DNA from: a virus
Strand: one strand, 5' to 3'
DNA length: 35,692 bases
IMG/VR virus record: IMGVR_UViG_3300048044_000167
Coordinates: 1-35,692 of that record
In this document: in pieces, positions 3,202 through 35,692 of the stretch
How positions within the stretch are numbered: the first letter of the stretch is position 1
Layout of the letters: the number at the start of each line of letters is the position of its first letter
The notes under the pieces: generated by a model
The model's database searches: none
Told to the model about the DNA's origin: nothing
Seen by the model: only the letters and a program-made list of their open reading frames with translations
Program-made: the position numbers and the translations under genes

Positions 3202-3582
3202 CTATAAAACCTCCATTTCAATTTTAAATCTTATTAACTTACAAAAATTTTGATCAATCGGCAGAACTGGCCCTGTGCTGTCGCGGATATATCCGAGGCA
3301 AACCATAATCCTGTCAACATCCAATAATATAGCTGCCAACACTGTTTTGTTGGCAGCTACTGCAGTTATTGCAATTGTGATTTCTGATGCTTTCTCAGCA
3401 TCATCAGCCCCAAATGCAGGCTTATTATTATCTTCTTCGAAAATGACATAAGGCTCAGCGACTTCGATACTTGGATAAGCATTGAAGACCTTGCCGACTT
3501 CAGAGACACCTGTACCAATCTTCGCTGTCAGCGCCACATCTGAGGATAAGGCTGCCATAATTTCAGGAATAGGATTGAGCAT
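3202..3582 (-). CDS. Tail completion protein, DUF3168/gp17-like
   Basis: A 126-residue protein with the layout of SPP1 gp17-like tail completion proteins: an N-terminal helix (IPEIMAALSSDVALTAKIG), the central PYVIFEEDN strand and a C-terminal strand (FKIEMEVL). It is made between the gp10-like protein and the major tail protein, as expected for the factor that caps the tail tube and joins it to the head. Its start overlaps the end of the upstream gene by about 20 bases, indicating translational coupling. The family call comes from pattern and position. Confidence 0.7.
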   Translation of the reverse strand: MLNPIPEIMAALSSDVALTAKIGTGVSEVGKVFNAYPSIEVAEPYVIFEEDNNKPAFGADDAEKASEITIAITAVAANKTVLAAILLDVDRIMVCLGYIRDSTGPVLPIDQNFCKLIRFKIEMEVL

Positions 3583-4012
3583 TTTCTTTCGCTGCCTCCT
3601 GAATTGACTTAATGAGTTTTTCTCTTATCCCAGGCGCTTTCGCATCCATAGATGGATACATAAATGGTTTTTTAATTCGTGGGTCAAACTCTACAAATTG
3701 ACCGTATGGCATCCCTTTTGGATTCTTCGCCCCAGCAGTTATGACAATTCTTGTTCCGTCCCTGTTTGGAGTTGCAACAATGCTATCGCGCAACGCCCCT
3801 GGCACATGTTCCTCAATACCCATGTCTGCCAAGTAAGCACTGTGAATATCGCTATGATCTCTCGGTTTCCCTACTGGGCAAGTTTCTTTGGCCAATTCAA
3901 CTATTTCTTCGGCTCCTTCGGCTAAGACAGGAACGACATTTTTCAGAACTGTTGAACCAAACTCACGTGCAAACTCCTTGAACCGATTGCCGTGATTCCT
4001 GCTTTTCGCCAT
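3563..4012 (-). CDS. HK97 gp10-like tail/neck component
   Basis: A 149-residue protein with the features of the HK97 gp10-like family: a helical N-terminus, then CPVGKPRDHS, PGALRDSI, a beta hairpin around VITAGAKN and the YGQFVEFDPR turn near residue 110. Members are tail or neck completion proteins. It lies in a tightly overlapped run of joining proteins between the capsid and the tail tube. It starts with ATG at 4012, sharing bases with the previous stop. Confidence 0.75.
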   Translation of the reverse strand: MAKSRNHGNRFKEFAREFGSTVLKNVVPVLAEGAEEIVELAKETCPVGKPRDHSDIHSAYLADMGIEEHVPGALRDSIVATPNRDGTRIVITAGAKNPKGMPYGQFVEFDPRIKKPFMYPSMDAKAPGIREKLIKSIQEAAKENAQSYS

Positions 4013-4320
4013 TACTTATCACCGCCCAGTGCATTGTTCAAGCCAATCACACGGATTTTCCCGTAATCAAGTATTTTTTCGATATATAACGGTTCGTTAT
4101 TGACGATAAACCGGTTCCCTTTAATCATTTGGGCATTCTCAACTTTGGTGTAAAACTCATAATCAACATCATCAATAAGCCCAGCAGATCGAACAGATAT
4201 GGTGTTAGAAACCGGAATCAAAGTTCCATAAATCATCGCAACATTAGACCAGTTTTTTTGAACATTGCCCTCACCGTCAGTTGCGGGAACACATCCCTGC
4301 AGTTGAATTGATGTTTTCAT
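4012..4320 (-). CDS. Phage head-tail joining (head closure) protein
   Basis: A 102-residue beta-rich protein whose pattern fits the head closure family (SPP1 gp16/HK97 gp9-like): a central strand set around VAMIYGTLIP, VDYEFYTKVE and GNRFIVNNEPLYIEKI. These proteins close the connector after packaging and give the tail its docking surface. Start and stop overlap neighbours by a few bases on each side. The assignment is partly from gene order. Confidence 0.65.
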   Translation of the reverse strand: MKTSIQLQGCVPATDGEGNVQKNWSNVAMIYGTLIPVSNTISVRSAGLIDDVDYEFYTKVENAQMIKGNRFIVNNEPLYIEKILDYGKIRVIGLNNALGGDK

Positions 4321-4964
4321 GTGATCACCGGCTTATAATAATGTTCGAGCTTTTCTTTGATCCACGTCGGAATAGTAGTGATATATTTATTTCGCATCGG
4401 CCCGACATCTTCTTGCTCGTTGTGTTCGCTGCCACGCATTTGATAGGTGATAGATAAGAGTTGGCAACAGGTTTCTTCAAGATCATAGGGCAATGTGCGG
4501 GGAACGCCAACAGGATCGTCGGTAGTTGGCAAAACTTCATCTTTGGGCAGAACATAACCGGCAGTAAAACTCCCATCAATCTTTCCTTGCCATCCGTGAT
4601 GATTCCGCAACATTCCGCTTTCTGCAAGCAACTTGTAATCAGTAAATGGCTGTTCATCGACCATCACAGATACCGTTGCAATAGGATATTGTTCTAAAAG
4701 TAAATCTTTTTTGCAATTAAGCAATGGTGGCGCTTGAAGAATTTGATTATAAGGATACATCGGGAGCGGTGAAGGCGCCCGTTCAACAAAAAATGAAAAA
4801 GTATAACTTCCTACTGCAAAAATACGGCTACATTCTTTTTGAATAGCGTCGGTTGTCGAATTAATAAGAAATTCCAGTAAAGTATCCTGCGACGTGTCAG
4901 TTAGATCAATCCCCATGAACATTTTTGCAGTAACAAGGGTTGTTAAAGCATAAGAAGATAGCAT
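4317..4964 (-). CDS. Head-tail connector protein, gp6-like
   Basis: A 215-residue protein with an N-terminal helical bundle (DTLLEFLINSTTDAIQKEC) of the HK97 gp6/phiETA gp6-like connector family. A beta-rich middle (VSVMVDEQPFTDYKLL...IDGSFTAGYVLP) and a C-terminal helix (WIKEKLEHYYKP) follow. It would form the ring below the portal. It lies directly after the head fibre gene and before the closure protein, matching the usual order. The ATG at 4964 follows a GGAGGTGGCATT site. Confidence 0.75.
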   Translation of the reverse strand: MLSSYALTTLVTAKMFMGIDLTDTSQDTLLEFLINSTTDAIQKECSRIFAVGSYTFSFFVERAPSPLPMYPYNQILQAPPLLNCKKDLLLEQYPIATVSVMVDEQPFTDYKLLAESGMLRNHHGWQGKIDGSFTAGYVLPKDEVLPTTDDPVGVPRTLPYDLEETCCQLLSITYQMRGSEHNEQEDVGPMRNKYITTIPTWIKEKLEHYYKPVIT

Positions 4965-19594: not shown

Positions 19595-20212
19595 CTATAA
19601 TTCTACTCGTTTTTTTCGCTCGCCAATTTTTAAATAAATATCCGCAATTGTAACACCGGTTTTGGTCAATTCCGCATTATTGGTTATTAACCTCTGCTTA
19701 TTCATAACGGCCAATTCCCGCCTGGAAATTAACAACAAATTGTCCAAAATAACATTTTGTTTATTACCATCCGCGAAAATCACTACATGCCCCGTAGGTA
19801 CAGCCCCATTGACTTCTTCCCAAAGTATGATGTGCTTGCCCTTCCACTTGCCAGGGTCGGCAATCTTTATCTCTACATACCCGTCAGTATTGGTTCGCTC
19901 GGTACCGACCGGCTTATAATTATGGGGCCTACAGCCTTTTTTAAACTGCGTGGGCTCCCAGCCGCCAATTCCTTTTTTGCCTTTATTAAACGGAACATGA
20001 CCTTTTTTAAACTGCGTAGGTTCATATCCGGTGTTAAAGTGTGTGTCACGTCCGTTATGCAGGCCATGTTTACATGCCAGTGAAACCATTGCGGAAACAT
20101 TTATGTCCATCCCAAAACGCTCATTAAACATGTCGGTCAATTCCCGATAACTCCGACCCTTTATATTAATACTGATATATTCGATATGCTCTGCCGTGTA
20201 TTTTCTGTTCAT
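19595..20212 (-). CDS. HNH homing-type endonuclease
   Basis: 205 residues. The N-terminal part looks like a helix-turn-helix (YTAEHIEYISINIKGRSYRELTDMFNERFG). Two FKKG-type repeats follow (GYEPTQFKKGHVPFNKG and GGWEPTQFKKG), then an HNH_3 core (HIILWEEVNGAVPTGHVVIFADGNKQNVILDNLLLISRRE). These are standard for free-standing phage HNH endonucleases that spread by cutting related genomes. It is probably a selfish insertion within the early region, next to the two plus-strand genes. Confidence 0.88.
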   Translation of the reverse strand: MNRKYTAEHIEYISINIKGRSYRELTDMFNERFGMDINVSAMVSLACKHGLHNGRDTHFNTGYEPTQFKKGHVPFNKGKKGIGGWEPTQFKKGCRPHNYKPVGTERTNTDGYVEIKIADPGKWKGKHIILWEEVNGAVPTGHVVIFADGNKQNVILDNLLLISRRELAVMNKQRLITNNAELTKTGVTIADIYLKIGERKKRVEL

Positions 20213-21274: not shown

Positions 21275-21567
21275 TGGTCCGTCTCCCAATATGTGATTTT
21301 TAAAACCTCACCCGCATGAACCTCGCCGTTTCCAATAACATCGTAATTTTCCTCACGAATCCCCTCGCAGAATTCATCAATTTGCCGGACGGTCCCAGTG
21401 TTTTTCACAATGAACTGCTCAGCGATTGTCAACAGAGTATCCGACTTCGTGACAGTATACGTTTCAGTAACGTAGGTATAACCGCACTGTGTAACCACAA
21501 TCACCAGTAACACAGCGATTTTCATAATGGTTGTGACCGTATGCTTGATAAACCGATGCTTATACAT
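21271..21567 (-). CDS. Membrane-anchored LysM-like protein
   Basis: 98 residues from ATG 21567 with GGAGGT upstream. One N-terminal membrane segment (IMKIAVLLVIVVTQCGYTYV) is followed by a LysM-like motif (YTVTKSDTLLTIAEQF and GEVLKITYW), although a longer insert separates the two halves. This suggests a cell-wall-facing anchored protein. It overlaps the 3' end of the helicase gene, an unusual place for an envelope protein. Confidence 0.6.
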   Translation of the reverse strand: MYKHRFIKHTVTTIMKIAVLLVIVVTQCGYTYVTETYTVTKSDTLLTIAEQFIVKNTGTVRQIDEFCEGIREENYDVIGNGEVHAGEVLKITYWETDQ

Positions 21568-23782
21568 TTTCAGTACCTCCAAACGGTATTCGCTTCAACT
21601 CGCATTGCTTGACAACCCAATTCGGATTGTAGCCTCTCTGCATGGCGATCTGCTCCAAACTAACTACATTTTTGGCCTTATGGACTTCTTCTTTTTTACG
21701 CTTCTTTTCAAGTTCAATTATTTCTGCAAGCTCGCCGTCACGCTGTTCTATTTCTTTCTGTTGCTCTACCTGGTAAATATGGTAACAATATGGACATACC
21801 GGTGATGGTTTGTGAACGCCAAAACATTTCGGACAAATTTTCATCGGAAACTCACGTTTTTCAGTAGGCTTTTTCTTTTTCGATTCCAGAGACCACTCGC
21901 GATCTTCATCAGGCAAACCATGCCGATACACATTGCCAACGTGGTCAATAATTTTTGCTATCTTACCAGGATTATCATCGTTCGGACGCATGGGCCGCAT
22001 TGCTTGCTGGATAAACAACGTTAGTGATTGTGTCGGCCTAGCTAATATGACCGTCTCCATAGCGGGAACATCAAATCCCTCGCTGATGAGATCAACATTA
22101 CACAATATTTTAATGGCACCTGTTTTAAATTCGTTGATAGCTGCAGCTCGGGTTATGCTCGGAGTCTCACCATCGATATGTAGCGCAGGAATACCAGACT
22201 GGCGAAACATGTCTGCGGTATGCTGACTATGCTCGATACTAGCGCAGTAGCAAACTGCTTTTGTACCTGGTGCCAACTCCTGATATTTTTTAATTAAGTC
22301 CCCGATAATTTCCGACTTGTCCATTCTCATAGCAATTTCAGACTGAACATAATCGCCGTATTTAACTTTCAAACCTTCAAGATTAGCTGCTACTGGTGGA
22401 GCGTAATAACGATAAGTCGATAAGTTTCCAGCAGCTACTAACTCCTTTACCGATGGTCCTATAATCATCGAATCAAATATGTCGCCGAGACCTTGACCGC
22501 CCATCCTCTGAGGTGTTGCCGTTAGCCCAATAACATAAGCGTCGGGGTAAATATCGAGTAGCTTACGCCAAGTATTCGCTACGGCATGATGACAATTATG
22601 GACCGCTATTCCATTGGCAAAGTAGGTTTGGTATTTTGCAACTTCAATATTGTAGACATAACCGTCTTGACACAAATGTGTAAATTTATCAGAACTTCCT
22701 TGTTCGAAAATCTCAACACGGTCCACCCGAGCGAGCTCAATAGTTCCATTTTCTTTTTGTCCTGCTTTTTCCGTTCCAAGGCCGCGTGAGAATAGCCGTC
22801 TATTTCTATGGCTATTTTTAATTCTGGATTGGCAATGTCGATCTTGTAATTTGTTGGATACCCCATTCCTAATGGAACCCCAGTTGGGACAGCGTACTCC
22901 ATATGAGGCCACCCCAACGTTTCCGATAGTATTTGTTGTGGAACTGAACTGCCGGTTCCATTTCCTCCGCGAACGGAAGGCTTGTGATGTATCCTTTTGA
23001 GAGTAGCTGACATTTTTTCTCTTGCATTTTGATCCTGCATTGGATTGTGATTTTTCATTCTTTCGGAAGCATCGCGATGATTGCGATCGATCATTTCCTC
23101 TCTGTAACACGTTTGGCATCTTTGCGACCTTTTTGTCTTCTTGGGTCCGCCGCAACAAGGGCATATATACATAAACTTCATCGCCTTTGGTTATCGCTTT
23201 TGCTTTTTTCCAACCATTATCCGTGAAGATTGGATGGTCAGCTGTACAAACTATGGTTTGATCATCGATCAGCAAACGGTATAGCGTTTGAGGAGCAAGT
23301 TTTCTTGAAATATTAGTCACAACTGAATAACAAACTTTCTTGGTTATTTCATCAAAACAAGGTATGGAATCGCCAACTTTTATTTTTTCAATAGTCGTAT
23401 TGCCAACTGCAGTCCCAGCAACAAAACACTCGTCCAATATGATTAACTGCGGCTGCTGTATACGGTTGGTTCTATTGACGATCGTTTTGATACTACCAAT
23501 CTGAATACTTTCGCTTGGATTCATCGGATATTTAGCGGCAACGATGCCATGAGAAACATTGAGTTTGTTGAATGTTTTTGAAGACTGGTCAATTAATTCT
23601 TGGCGGTGGACCGCAAACAATGTGTTATTACCTTTGAGCCTTGCCTGTGATGCCATCCACGCCATGATTATTGTCTTGCCGGAACCACATGGACTAACTA
23701 TACATATTCTTTTTTTTCCACTCTGGAATTCTATTCGGCTACCATCGATCAGCATTTCTTGATAATCACGAAGTTCGAACAA
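21560..23782 (-). CDS. SF2 DEAD/DEAH helicase interrupted by an intein
   Basis: 740 codons from TTG 23782, seven bases after GAGGTGA; the frame is open a little further up without a site. Helicase motifs: Walker A PCGSGKT (31-37), DExH box split as LIILDE | CHH (118 / 397), GLTATPQR, SEGFDVP and QAMRPMRP (motif VI). A C-terminal Cys4 zinc ribbon (CPKCFGVHKPSPVCPYC) and a coiled tail follow. Residues 119-396 are a 278-residue intein. The spliced product would have 462 residues. This family of phage helicases lies with SSB and annealing genes and probably serves replication or recombination. Without splicing the DExH box is broken and the enzyme dead. Confidence 0.92.
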   Translation of the reverse strand: MFELRDYQEMLIDGSRIEFQSGKKRICIVSPCGSGKTIIMAWMASQARLKGNNTLFAVHRQELIDQSSKTFNKLNVSHGIVAAKYPMNPSESIQIGSIKTIVNRTNRIQQPQLIILDECFVAGTAVGNTTIEKIKVGDSIPCFDEITKKVCYSVVTNISRKLAPQTLYRLLIDDQTIVCTADHPIFTDNGWKKAKAITKGDEVYVYMPLLRRTQEDKKVAKMPNVLQRGNDRSQSSRCFRKNEKSQSNAGSKCKRKNVSYSQKDTSQAFRSRRKWNRQFSSTTNTIGNVGVASYGVRCPNWGSIRNGVSNKLQDRHCQSRIKNSHRNRRLFSRGLGTEKAGQKENGTIELARVDRVEIFEQGSSDKFTHLCQDGYVYNIEVAKYQTYFANGIAVHNCHHAVANTWRKLLDIYPDAYVIGLTATPQRMGGQGLGDIFDSMIIGPSVKELVAAGNLSTYRYYAPPVAANLEGLKVKYGDYVQSEIAMRMDKSEIIGDLIKKYQELAPGTKAVCYCASIEHSQHTADMFRQSGIPALHIDGETPSITRAAAINEFKTGAIKILCNVDLISEGFDVPAMETVILARPTQSLTLFIQQAMRPMRPNDDNPGKIAKIIDHVGNVYRHGLPDEDREWSLESKKKKPTEKREFPMKICPKCFGVHKPSPVCPYCYHIYQVEQQKEIEQRDGELAEIIELEKKRKKEEVHKAKNVVSLEQIAMQRGYNPNWVVKQCELKRIPFGGTENV
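22595..23428 (-). other. Class 1 intein in the helicase DExH box
   Basis: 278 residues with block A (CFVAGTAVG, Cys1; TIEKIKVGD), block B (TIVCTADHPIFTDNGW, with the TxxH), block F (YVYNIEVAKYQTYFANG) and block G (IAVHN then Cys+1). All residues needed for standard splicing are present. Roughly residues 1-97 and 233-278 make a normal mini-intein of about 145 residues. The middle, in this frame, is rich in Arg, Ser, Asn, Gln and Lys, looks like no folded protein, and is the out-of-frame reading of the nested endonuclease gene. Yet it has no stop. Confidence 0.93.
22606..23181 (-). CDS. EDxHD (Vsr-like/DUF559) homing endonuclease nested out of frame in the intein
   Basis: 191 residues in the +1 frame relative to the intein. 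Two CxxC pairs (C7/C10, C22/C25) form an N-terminal zinc finger. A basic linker with RMKNHNPMQD and SVRGGNGTGSS is followed by a Vsr-like nuclease core: IAIEIDGYSH with E126, D128, H132, then D141, and LGWTVLRFSNKEVL. This matches the EDxHD homing endonucleases of phages. It has its own ATG (23181, or 23172 with AAAGG 11 bases upstream) and its own stop, 11 bases before the intein end. Its last 40 codons overlap the intein splicing blocks F and G. Confidence 0.88.
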   Translation of the reverse strand: MKFMYICPCCGGPKKTKRSQRCQTCYREEMIDRNHRDASERMKNHNPMQDQNAREKMSATLKRIHHKPSVRGGNGTGSSVPQQILSETLGWPHMEYAVPTGVPLGMGYPTNYKIDIANPELKIAIEIDGYSHAALERKKQDKKKMELLSSLGWTVLRFSNKEVLINLHICVKTVMSTILKLQNTKPTLPME

Positions 23783-23853
23783 TAAAATCACCTCGAAAAG
23801 GGTAAAGAGTAGCCCATCCAAAGCGAATTAGATGGGCTATGTTAAGTTATATA

Positions 23854-24435
23854 TTAGTAGGGTGAATTGGACGGTGGGAACGGCAATGTAGTTGCTGGTG
23901 TAAACGGTGGTGTAGCTGGTGCCGGTGCGGCAGCCGCAGGTTTAATAATTTGCCAATTGCCATTTATTTGTTGCCACAGATTACCCGCATTATCATACTG
24001 TGGTGCCAGTGCTGCAGCTGGTGCAGCTGGTGCAGCCGGTGGCGCATATTGAGGACCAGCTGGTGGCTGTCCGTATGGCTGAGCAGTTGCAGGAGGCACT
24101 CCATATGGTTGAGCAGGGGCAGCTGCCGGTGTGGACCCTTTCGGTTCAACAAAATCAATGGTATTAATATTGCACTGCCAAGATCGTTGTTTCTGGCCAT
24201 TGTTATCAGTCCATTGCTGTTCTTCCATTCGACCAGATACAACCAACTTATGGCCTTTTTGGCAAGAATTTAAAATTAATTCAGCTGTTTTTCCAAATGC
24301 TGAGCACCGGAAGAAACTAACCTTATCCTGGCCATAGTTGTCAGCCAGATTAAAATGTGCGATTGCTTTACCGTCTTGAGCTGTTTTTGATTCCGGATTA
24401 TCTGTAAATCTTCCTGAAATTACAATACTATTCAT
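23854..24435 (-). CDS. ssb: Single-stranded DNA-binding protein
   Basis: 193 residues. The OB fold spans about 1-105 (SIVISGRFTDNPESKTA, HFNLADNY, FFRCSAFGKTAELI, LVVSGRMEEQQWTDNNGQK). A long Pro/Ala/Gln/Tyr-rich tail follows. The tail end is LPFPPSNSPY and lacks the acidic DDDIPF tip, although an LPF is present. It protects ssDNA during phage replication and sits next to the helicase and the ERF annealing gene. Start at ATG 24435 after GGAGGT. Confidence 0.95.
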   Translation of the reverse strand: MNSIVISGRFTDNPESKTAQDGKAIAHFNLADNYGQDKVSFFRCSAFGKTAELILNSCQKGHKLVVSGRMEEQQWTDNNGQKQRSWQCNINTIDFVEPKGSTPAAAPAQPYGVPPATAQPYGQPPAGPQYAPPAAPAAPAAALAPQYDNAGNLWQQINGNWQIIKPAAAAPAPATPPFTPATTLPFPPSNSPY

Positions 24436-33184: not shown

Positions 33185-33273
33185 GTACGAGAAGCGAAAT
33201 TATGATTATTGAAGAGTTTCAAACCCTTCCATAGGACAAGTTGTGCTTAAATATATCGAAAGGAGATCATCAA

Positions 33274-34773
33274 ATGAACCTCGCCGCCGTTTACGCTCGT
33301 TATTCTTCGGACAAGCAGAACGAAACGTCTTCACAAGCCCAAATTAGGGCCGCAGAGGCTTACTGTGCAGCTAAGAACTATACTGTAGTAAAAATATACA
33401 CCGACGAAGCAAAGTCCGCTAAAACAGACGACAGACCCGCTTTCCAGCAAATGATCACCGACGCTAAAAACAAATTATTCAACATATTGATTGTCCATAA
33501 AATCGACCGTTTTTCTCGTAATCGATATGATTCAGCCATCTATAAACGTGCCCTACAGAAAGCCAATGTGACGATTGAGTATGTTGAGCAGTATATCGAC
33601 GGATCGCCTGAATCAGTCATAATGGAATCTTTGCTGGAAGGAATGGCTGAATATTATTCTTTGAATCTTGCCAAAGAAACCATGAAAGGACTCAACGAAC
33701 GCGCCTATAGTGCCAAATTTAATGGTGGAACACCACCACTGGGCTACGATATTGTCAACGAACAATATGTTATAAATGAACGCGAATCAAACGCTGTGCA
33801 AATGATTTTCAAAATGTTTATTGATGGCCATGGCTACGGTAAAATATCCGATGAATTAACACGACTTGGATATCGCACAAAACGAGGTAACCCATTTGGT
33901 AAAAATTCATTGCATGAAATATTAAAAAACCAAAAATATATTGGAAGATACACTTTTGGTAAAGTAAAAAAACAAAAAAATGGCAAGAGAAATTCTCATG
34001 CCATTAATGATGATGCCGTTATTGTTGAAAATGCCTTACCCGTAATCATCAATAAAATACAATTTGAAAAGGTGAAAACTATAATGGAAAAAAACAAAAA
34101 ACGCCCAGGCTCTTTTCGTGCTAAAGAAATTTATTTGTTATCTGGTAAGATTTTTTGCGGTGAATGTAATGCAGCCATGATTGGAAAAACATCTACGGTT
34201 AGACAAACGTATCGTTATAGTCGCTACGTATGTGGCTCACAAGATCGTCATTTAGGGACTTGTCATAACTCCGTTATTCAGCGCGATACAATTGAAAGTC
34301 ATGTTGCTAATTATATTGAAAAAAGCTTATTTTCCCCACTAGCTATTGCCGAACTAACACAAAAAATAAATTCTAGTATGCGAGCAAAAGCATCTAATGT
34401 CTTGAAAGAATTTGATTTATTAACGTTAGAAGAAAAATCCGTTATAAAAAAAATATCGAATCTATATGAAACCATTGAAGACGGTGAAGCTGATGATTTC
34501 GATAAATCACGATTAAACAAAAACAAATCGCGTGCTAATCAAATACATTCACGGCTAATTGAACTTCATCAAATGATGGAATCACAATATTTAAGTGAGG
34601 AGCAAATCTCAATCACCTTAGAATCTTATAAAAACATGGCAAAAGAAAAAACACCTGAATCTCTTCAGATGTTATTCAACACTTTTCTTGACCGAGTAAT
34701 TATCAATAATGATGATTTCGAAGTCATTTTAAAAGTGTGTGTCGGTTTGATTGGTGCCGAGGACCGGAATTGA
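33274..34773 (+). CDS. Large serine integrase
   Basis: 499 residues from ATG 33274 (GAAAGGAG upstream). Catalytic domain: VYARYSSDKQNETSSQ with Ser11, IVHKIDRFSRNRYD, and EGMAEYYSLNLAKE. Recombinase domain (GTPPLGYDIV...RTKRGNPFGKNSLHEIL) from about 150. Zinc ribbon (FCGECNAAM ... CGSQDRHLGTCHN) near 300-345, then a coiled coil. It joins attP and attB without needing the host factors used by tyrosine integrases. The last six codons and stop (34753-34773) lie inside the tRNA-Leu gene on the other strand, so the crossover point must be at or near this gene end. Confidence 0.95.
   Translation: MNLAAVYARYSSDKQNETSSQAQIRAAEAYCAAKNYTVVKIYTDEAKSAKTDDRPAFQQMITDAKNKLFNILIVHKIDRFSRNRYDSAIYKRALQKANVTIEYVEQYIDGSPESVIMESLLEGMAEYYSLNLAKETMKGLNERAYSAKFNGGTPPLGYDIVNEQYVINERESNAVQMIFKMFIDGHGYGKISDELTRLGYRTKRGNPFGKNSLHEILKNQKYIGRYTFGKVKKQKNGKRNSHAINDDAVIVENALPVIINKIQFEKVKTIMEKNKKRPGSFRAKEIYLLSGKIFCGECNAAMIGKTSTVRQTYRYSRYVCGSQDRHLGTCHNSVIQRDTIESHVANYIEKSLFSPLAIAELTQKINSSMRAKASNVLKEFDLLTLEEKSVIKKISNLYETIEDGEADDFDKSRLNKNKSRANQIHSRLIELHQMMESQYLSEEQISITLESYKNMAKEKTPESLQMLFNTFLDRVIINNDDFEVILKVCVGLIGAEDRN
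34752..34773. other. Right prophage boundary / attachment site region
   Basis: The integrase end and the tRNA-Leu 3' end share these 22 bases. The integrase frame here encodes GAEDRN and stops, which is the antisense of a tRNA 3' end. This places the attachment core in or beside the tRNA-Leu gene. The left half is outside the window, so the exact core cannot be set. Confidence 0.6.
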
Positions 34774-34840
34774 ACCGGTACGGAGATCACTCTCCGAGGG
34801 ATTTTAAGTCCCTTGCGTCTGCCAGTTCCGCCACCCCGGC
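34752..34840 (-). tRNA. tRNA-Leu (UAA)
   Basis: 89 bases with a long variable arm, acceptor GCCGGGG/CCTCGGC, anticodon TAA in GACTTAAAATCC, T arm GGTTCAATTCC and encoded CCA. The prophage end lies in its 3' part and leaves the gene intact. Last tRNA of a five-gene operon. Confidence 0.95.
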
Positions 34841-34858
34841 ATGGGGTTTATGAAAATG

Positions 34859-34933
<75 letters not shown>

Positions 34934-34936
34934 ATA

Positions 34937-35011
34937 TGGAGCGGAAAACGAGATTCGAACTCGCGACCCTCGCCTTGGCAAGGCGATGCTCTACCGCTGA
35001 GCTATTTCCGC
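34937..35011 (-). tRNA. tRNA-Gly (GCC)
   Basis: 75 bases with acceptor GCGGAAA, anticodon GCC in CTTGCCAAG, T arm GTTCGAAT and encoded CCA. Confidence 0.95.
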
Positions 35012-35025
35012 ATGTAAAAAACAAA

Positions 35026-35101
<76 letters not shown>

Positions 35102-35105
35102 AAAT

Positions 35106-35181
35106 TGGCGACCCAGATCGGATTTGAACCGACGACCTCCGCCGTGACAGGGCGGCATTCTAACCGCTAAACTACTGGGCC
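35106..35181 (-). tRNA. tRNA-Asp (GTC)
   Basis: 76 bases with acceptor GGCCCAG/CTGGGTC, anticodon GTC in CTGTCAC, T arm GTTCAAAT and encoded CCA. First gene of the leftward tRNA operon. Confidence 0.95.
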
Positions 35182-35201
35182 ATTCCGTAAGTTACTTTAA
35201 T

Positions 35202-35230
35202 ATTATATTACTTTTAACTTACTATGTCAA
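35202..35230 (-). promoter_or_regulatory. tRNA operon promoter
   Basis: TTGACA (35225-35230), 17-base spacer, TATAAT (35202-35207): both hexamers match the consensus exactly. It drives the five tRNA genes leftward. No terminator is visible after tRNA-Leu, so transcripts may run antisense into the integrase. Confidence 0.92.
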
Positions 35231-35332
35231 CAGTTTTATTTTAAAAAAATCAAAAACAATTATTTAAACAATTTGCTAGAACAGCAAGTATTATTATATC
35301 AAGTTTTAAAAATAAGTCAAGATAAGACTGCA

Positions 35333-35692
35333 TTATTTTAATAGTTTTTCAATGGTGCTCAAAACTTTAAGTGGATCAAAAGGTTTTACAAGGAAGTCAG
35401 ACGCGCCGGCTTGCAAGGCTTCAGTCATTACTGCGCGTTGTCCAATTGCAGTTACCATGATGATTCGCGCTAAGGGATCTTCATCATGAATCAGCCTTGT
35501 AGCCTCTACGCCGTCTAACTTGGGCATTGTAATATCCATCGTTGTTAAATCAGGTTTTAATTGGCGAAAAAGCTGCACCGCCTGCATACCATCACCTGCT
35601 TCACCAATTACCTCGTGACCATTATCAATTAAAAGTTTTTTTAGCATCATCCGCATAAACGCTGAATCATCACAGATAAGAATTTTAGCCAA
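35333..35692 (-). CDS. CheY-like response regulator
   Basis: 119 residues, a single receiver domain: acidic pair D8/D9, phospho-acceptor D53 (TTMDITMPKLDG), Thr in IIMVTAIG and Lys in FLVKPF. The start is TTG at 35692, the last base of the window, so a longer N-terminus cannot be excluded, though MAKILICDDSAFMR is the usual beginning. Such free-standing regulators act in chemotaxis. Host gene flanking the prophage. Confidence 0.9.
   Translation of the reverse strand: MAKILICDDSAFMRMMLKKLLIDNGHEVIGEAGDGMQAVQLFRQLKPDLTTMDITMPKLDGVEATRLIHDEDPLARIIMVTAIGQRAVMTEALQAGASDFLVKPFDPLKVLSTIEKLLK

Follow-up and report, generated by a model that had tools for sequence, protein, structure and literature searches.

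A conserved family of dual-coding phage inteins with a predicted homing endonuclease gene nested in the +1 frame

The present study concerns a viral sequence of 35,692 nucleotides (nt) (IMG/VR record IMGVR_UViG_3300048044_000167, positions 1 to 35,692; hereafter the window), in which a helicase gene is interrupted by an intein that itself contains a second gene in another reading frame. The helicase gene (21560..23782, minus strand, as are all features of this locus) lies in a frame that is free of stops from 23821 to 21560 according to the list of open reading frames (ORFs). It was assigned to the phage helicases of superfamily 2 (SF2) by Pfam (ResIII, 1.3e-24; Helicase_C, 3.2e-17) and by a match to PHROG 16, DNA helicase (1.5e-103). 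As read from the sequence, the gene is likely to start with the TTG at 23782, which has GAGGTGA upstream. The precursor comprises 740 amino acids, and the product predicted after splicing comprises 462.

The intein (22595..23428, 278 amino acids) was located by Pfam, AlphaFold 2 and Foldseek in the Walker B motif DE/CHH, which it interrupts after DE (here and below the slash within a motif marks the insertion point or splice junction). The codon of its first residue, C1, occupies 23426-23428 and that of its last, N278, occupies 22595-22597, followed by a Cys codon. Pfam recognised the PT-HINT (1.1e-11) and Intein_splicing (1.7e-10) domains. Block A (CFVAGTAV, 23405..23428) contains the nucleophile C1, and is followed by the block B region (including VCTADHPIFT, 23216..23257), block F (VYNIEVAKYQTYFA, 22616..22657) and block G with the +1 Cys (NGIAVHN/C, 22592..22615). 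In an alignment of 20 inteins C1, H65 of block B, Y269 of block F and V276, H277 and N278 of block G were invariant, and T62 of block B and Y259, N260 and E262 of block F were conserved at a level of at least 90%. In the AlphaFold 2 model, residues 1-98 and 228-278, where the predicted local distance difference test (pLDDT) was mostly at least about 90, form a Hint fold, which was closest in Foldseek to bacterial intein-like (BIL) domains and mini-inteins. The linker between the two parts (residues 99-227, 22748..23134), whose DNA also encodes the endonuclease described below, was poorly conserved and modelled as disordered, with pLDDT below 50 over residues 99-194 and 196-227. The element thus has Hint blocks A, B, F and G, an HN/C end, a position within a conserved site and intein-free homologues, as is characteristic of inteins. 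A group I or II intron had also been considered, and was dropped because Rfam gave no match at E up to 1 within 22000-24000.

The nested gene (22606..23181) is a complete ORF of 191 codons from ATG to TAG, at +1 relative to the helicase frame, with an alternative ATG at 23172 and an upstream stop in its own frame (TAA, 23191-23193). It lies wholly inside the intein and shares DNA with the codons of block F and with most of those of block G. The stop (22606..22608) falls inside block G, and in relatives it is usually found no more than 70 nt before the end of the intein. The product matched DUF559 in Pfam (5.7e-12) and was modelled by AlphaFold with a mean pLDDT of 90.8. At its N-terminus is a predicted zinc ribbon (C7xxC10 ... 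C22xxC25, 23101..23169), a beta-hairpin in the model, of which C10 and C22 were conserved at a level of at least 90% in 23 sequences. Structure alignment of the model delimited an EDxHD, or Vsr-like, nuclease core at residues 73-183 (22633..22965), for which VIA-align gave Z scores of 12.4 to 3hrl (Neisseria NGO0050), 11.1 to I-Bth0305I (3r3p) and 9.5 to Vsr (1cw0); a profile search also matched I-Bth0305I, at 0.002. The active-site residues E126, D128, H132 and D141 (22759..22806) were all invariant in 23 diverse relatives, and the product accordingly combines the E, D, H, D set of the EDxHD endonucleases with a predicted PD-(D/E)xK-like fold. Taken together, the AlphaFold models of both readings indicate that the bases which specify an ordered enzyme in the endonuclease frame are read as a featureless linker in the host frame.

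The first-pass annotation of this DNA, made from the letters alone, had described, in the helicase frame, an intact set of splicing blocks (A, B, F and G) and, at +1, a complete endonuclease gene with CxxC pairs, the four catalytic residues and its own stop. The former was borne out by Pfam, the alignment and AlphaFold 2, and the coordinates of the latter were found to be exact. Its estimate that an ORF of this length would occur by chance in about 1 of 10,000 cases was not robust and proved too optimistic: when the host protein was kept and synonymous codons were reshuffled, a +1 open run of at least 191 codons appeared in 3.5% of the trials, and ORF length was therefore dropped as proof. When instead the endonuclease protein was kept and its codons were reshuffled, 13.6 host-frame stops were expected, and the host frame was open in none of 20,000 trials. 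A non-chance origin is settled by homology and selection, since the nested +1 gene recurs in 100 loci and its frame is under purifying selection.

Relatives were collected by tblastn of the endonuclease on phage records, and by scans of IMG/VR and GTDB; individual loci are designated by L numbers. The tblastn search detected 40 phage records, every match lying inside a helicase or otherwise named coding sequence, and in the eight records that were opened (including Pseudomonas MR14, Corynebacterium phi673 and Vibrio CP-T1) the offset was +1 and the nested gene unannotated. The collection comprised 100 loci with a continuous intein, including the window, and represented 84 distinct inteins; the endonuclease was at +1 in all 100 and at +2 in none. 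A search started from the intein gave the nested +1 layout in 73 of 80 cases, and in the phage collection intein-only and endonuclease-only tblastn returned the identical 40 records. On plasmids only DUF559 fragments matched, none of them covering 80% of the query. Homologues in which the two frames agree had been named at the outset as the observation that would overturn the nested arrangement. Only one was found, L102 (3209-3983), a UvrD-like gene of Methanosuratincola whose nuclease shares the frame of the intein blocks and lacks the zinc ribbon; the search for in-frame homologues otherwise gave free-standing copies (L072, L073) and low-score ordinary DUF559 proteins. The nested intein is therefore a large conserved family and not a single oddity. 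Because the same-offset double coding recurs across phage and prophage genes, well over a hundred of them distinct, it must be regarded as an established design of mobile elements rather than as a sequencing error.

Some loci showed variations of this layout. In L061 (3141-4184) and L014 (3291-4082) the nested ORF extended beyond the intein into the C-extein, with stops 214 and 34 nt past the intein end, respectively. The continuous intein of L217 (3572-4400) contained a +1 open run of 222 codons that fell outside the endonuclease profile, perhaps a diverged or different nested endonuclease.

Selection in both frames was analyzed in eight independent close pairs, in which each substitution was classed by its effect in the host frame and in the endonuclease frame. 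In the Hint-N stretch ahead of the nested gene, the ratio resembling that of nonsynonymous to synonymous rates (dN/dS-like) was 0.27 for the host and 1.06 for the endonuclease. In the linker the values were 1.91 and 0.22, respectively, and in the overlap with the C-terminal blocks 0.62 and 0.39, indicating that both frames are constrained there. Between the window and its nearest relatives, amino acid identity in the linker was 50-61% in the endonuclease frame and 26-34% in the host frame, and in the C-terminal blocks 51-65% and 44-48%. The intein DNA is thus dual-coding, and constraint switches frame as predicted. In addition, endonuclease codons ahead of AAN, AGN or GAN never had T, which would create a host stop, at the third position (0/1205, compared with 3226/5339 at other opportunities), which shows the cost of keeping two frames open.

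With regard to expression of the nested gene, a candidate Shine-Dalgarno sequence, AAAGG (23184..23188), lies within Hint-N codons, 11 nt upstream of the alternative ATG at 23172 (duplex free energy -4.2 kcal/mol). For the family, the nested start was taken as the best-pairing in-frame ATG, and control ATGs in the same genes were given an equal choice; the median pairing was -6.3 kcal/mol at the nested ATG versus -3.3 kcal/mol at the controls (p 3e-10). The nested ATG is usually near the end of Hint-N, and in several phages a GAGG is supplied by the Hint codons for 'DEV'. Upstream of the nested ATG, the endonuclease frame is closed by a stop within a few codons at most loci, and immediately in front of the ATG in L028, L032, L036 and L085; a frameshift fusion would thus have little space, and internal initiation is favoured. 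Judging from these sequences, the endonuclease is most likely translated by internal initiation, with the help of a Shine-Dalgarno sequence embedded in Hint codons.

Among the proteins encoded by the host genes of these loci are SF2 helicases, a clamp-loader-like ATPase and SNF2-type helicases. In nearly all loci the insertion follows the acidic pair of Walker B (DE/C, and in some DEAH/C or DEAH/S), suggesting that the EDxHD enzyme probably recognises the Walker B coding sequence; jumps from one ATPase gene to an unrelated one would then be explained. In the nearest intein-free helicases, including L157 and L158, Walker B is uninterrupted and corresponds to DE/NHH or DE/SHH. The family is patchily spread, with 40 phage records containing the intein and 3302 containing a helicase homologue. 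In L073 (about 3320-4400) one of the free-standing endonuclease copies is directly upstream of a helicase gene that has no intein, and whose frame is broken exactly at the Walker B site.

We consider it very probable that the element is a mobile intein and that its homing endonuclease is encoded by a gene of its own, placed in the +1 frame of the intein. In the proposed mechanism, translation from the start codon of the helicase gene would continue through the insertion and produce the helicase with the intein. The Hint domain (blocks A and B with F and G) would fold around the disordered linker, whose sequence would be indifferent, excise itself and restore the Walker B motif. Internal initiation at the ATG near the end of Hint-N would yield the 191-residue endonuclease with its zinc ribbon and EDxHD core. 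The presumed target of this enzyme is the stretch of Walker B codons in helicase alleles without an intein; after cleavage there, repair would copy the intein into them.

Several points weigh against this interpretation. Splicing activity is predicted from residues and fold only, and internal initiation, the cleavage site and homing are inferred. No near-identical pair of alleles with and without the intein was found, which leaves recent homing a presumption. The Shine-Dalgarno pairing in the window is moderate, and the in-frame L102 departs from the rule. The zero count of third-position T follows in part from the choice of continuous ORFs.

Other explanations were weighed against the same data. 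An in-frame endonuclease might have been displaced by two compensating indels, or by sequencing errors, and now be a relic. L102, a distant relative in which the nuclease is in frame, would fit such an origin, but the offset is +1 throughout the continuous loci, which come from unrelated phages and assemblies, the nested frame is under purifying selection and the active-site residues are invariant. This explanation, about which the first-pass annotation had been concerned, was dropped for the family on account of the constant offset and the selection, and is scarcely credible for the window. The constant offset is also what a programmed +1 frameshift near the end of block B would need, by which the N-extein, Hint-N and the endonuclease would be fused. 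Such a fusion is improbable, since the upstream stops close to the ATG leave it almost no room in most loci, and the Shine-Dalgarno strength is raised at the nested ATG; conserved slippery sites were not searched systematically.

The insertion could alternatively be a tolerated insert that is never spliced and carries an out-of-frame endonuclease, exactly as described for HNH insertions in phage methylases (PMC11855218). Blocks A, B, F and G with C1, H65, N278 and the +1 Cys are, however, conserved, a Hint fold is predicted, Hint-N is under purifying selection in the host frame, and the catalytic Walker B motif, being split by the insertion, has to be restored, all of which make this very unlikely. 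A somewhat less remote, though still improbable, explanation is that the nested ORF functions in the family and is a decayed or silent passenger in the window phage, as the moderate ribosome-binding site would permit. Against this, the ORF is complete, its four catalytic residues and both CxxC pairs are intact, and the linker is much closer to that of the nearest relatives in the endonuclease frame than in the host frame.

The separate, nested gene remained the preferred interpretation, and was compared with known systems. Canonical large inteins (Hint with an in-frame LAGLIDADG or HNH endonuclease) share with the window blocks A, B, F and G, an endonuclease between B and F and insertion into a catalytic motif; in the window, however, the endonuclease is in another frame, has its own start and stop and overlaps the F and G codons, and the linker is disordered and poorly conserved. 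Endonucleases of the EDxHD (Vsr-like) type between the halves of split inteins, the so-called fractured genes, were reported by Dassa et al. (2009, NAR 37:2560), as cited in PMC12350094 and PMC10448857. They resemble the window in the type and position of the enzyme, whereas the window intein is one continuous ORF in cis without a host-frame stop, and its DNA is hence dual-coding. I-Bth0305I, the EDxHD homing endonuclease of a group I intron (3r3p), has the same nuclease fold and E/D/H/D active site but is intron-borne, while the window enzyme is nested in an intein and has an N-terminal zinc ribbon.

The methylase insertions of ShiLan and Pacc40 carry out-of-frame HNH endonucleases without recognisable splicing domains (PMC11855218, 2025). 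They too leave the host frame open, but their host proteins are thought to keep the insert, and they lack the EDxHD enzyme and intact Hint domain of the window. The same paper cites an actinophage-intein preprint ('non-canonical architecture') and Gorbalenya 1998 for overlapping frames in actinophages. The earlier statement that no such arrangement had been described holds for inteins with splicing blocks in the literature searched, and needs correction with regard to out-of-frame endonucleases as such, which are published for ShiLan and Pacc40. In that literature, which did not include the cited actinophage-intein works and Dassa et al. (2009), no conserved family of continuous inteins with complete splicing motifs and an out-of-frame EDxHD gene was described.

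Two relatives, L062 (547-1522) and L177 (3500-4454), have the same endonuclease at +1 and many host-frame stops. Their N-half protein ends shortly behind block B, with an in-frame ATG just ahead of the C-block, so that they have the fractured-gene layout, which the window, with its continuous host frame, does not. In the endonuclease tree L062 and L177 grouped together (SH-like approximate likelihood ratio test, SH-aLRT, 97) and were joined by the continuous L170 (93), inside the nested lineage, suggesting that split inteins arose from nested ones. Since the host-frame linker carries no information, few steps would suffice, namely a stop in the linker and an ATG before the C-block. The nested inteins may thus be an old lineage, spread by phages and specialised on the Walker B motif of unrelated P-loop ATPases, from which naturally split inteins evolved. 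Because support for the backbone of the tree is low, we hold the arguments for and against this proposal to be evenly balanced; if correct, it would provide a concrete evolutionary route to natural split inteins.

Further layouts were seen at three loci. L215 (2720-3890) has a lone host-frame stop in the linker of an otherwise continuous intein, and may be an incipient split intein or an assembly error. In L236 and L237 (3893-4891), where the host is possibly ribonucleotide-reductase-like, an N-half ORF ends before an ORF that contains an endonuclease and the C-half in one frame, which is another split layout.

These results indicate that the same bases can encode two proteins, an intein and its homing endonuclease, and that the family with this layout is conserved across distant phages and prophages of many bacterial phyla. 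In the phage records examined, the only annotation at this place is the helicase or a hypothetical ORF, which is why the nuclease has been overlooked. The nested layout separates splicing from expression of the endonuclease. The inteins of the family, more than 80 of them distinct, are compact and have linkers that are naturally dispensable, which makes them candidates for new split inteins, and the family is also a candidate source of new EDxHD endonucleases with Walker B targets.

The region of the window around the helicase gene is a prophage, with portal, capsid and terminase genes, and a serine recombinase gene that adjoins a tRNA cluster; SSB, Erf and Gam genes adjoin the helicase gene. 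Within 33241-35692 the recombinase gene ends in a tRNA-Leu gene, which belongs to a cluster of five tRNAs and is followed by a response-regulator gene, and the junction between prophage and host probably lies in this segment. No 16-mer of the tRNA-Leu region that could represent an att core was repeated elsewhere in the window. A free-standing HNH_3 endonuclease gene (19595-20212, 7.1e-14) is likely a second homing-type nuclease of the same prophage.
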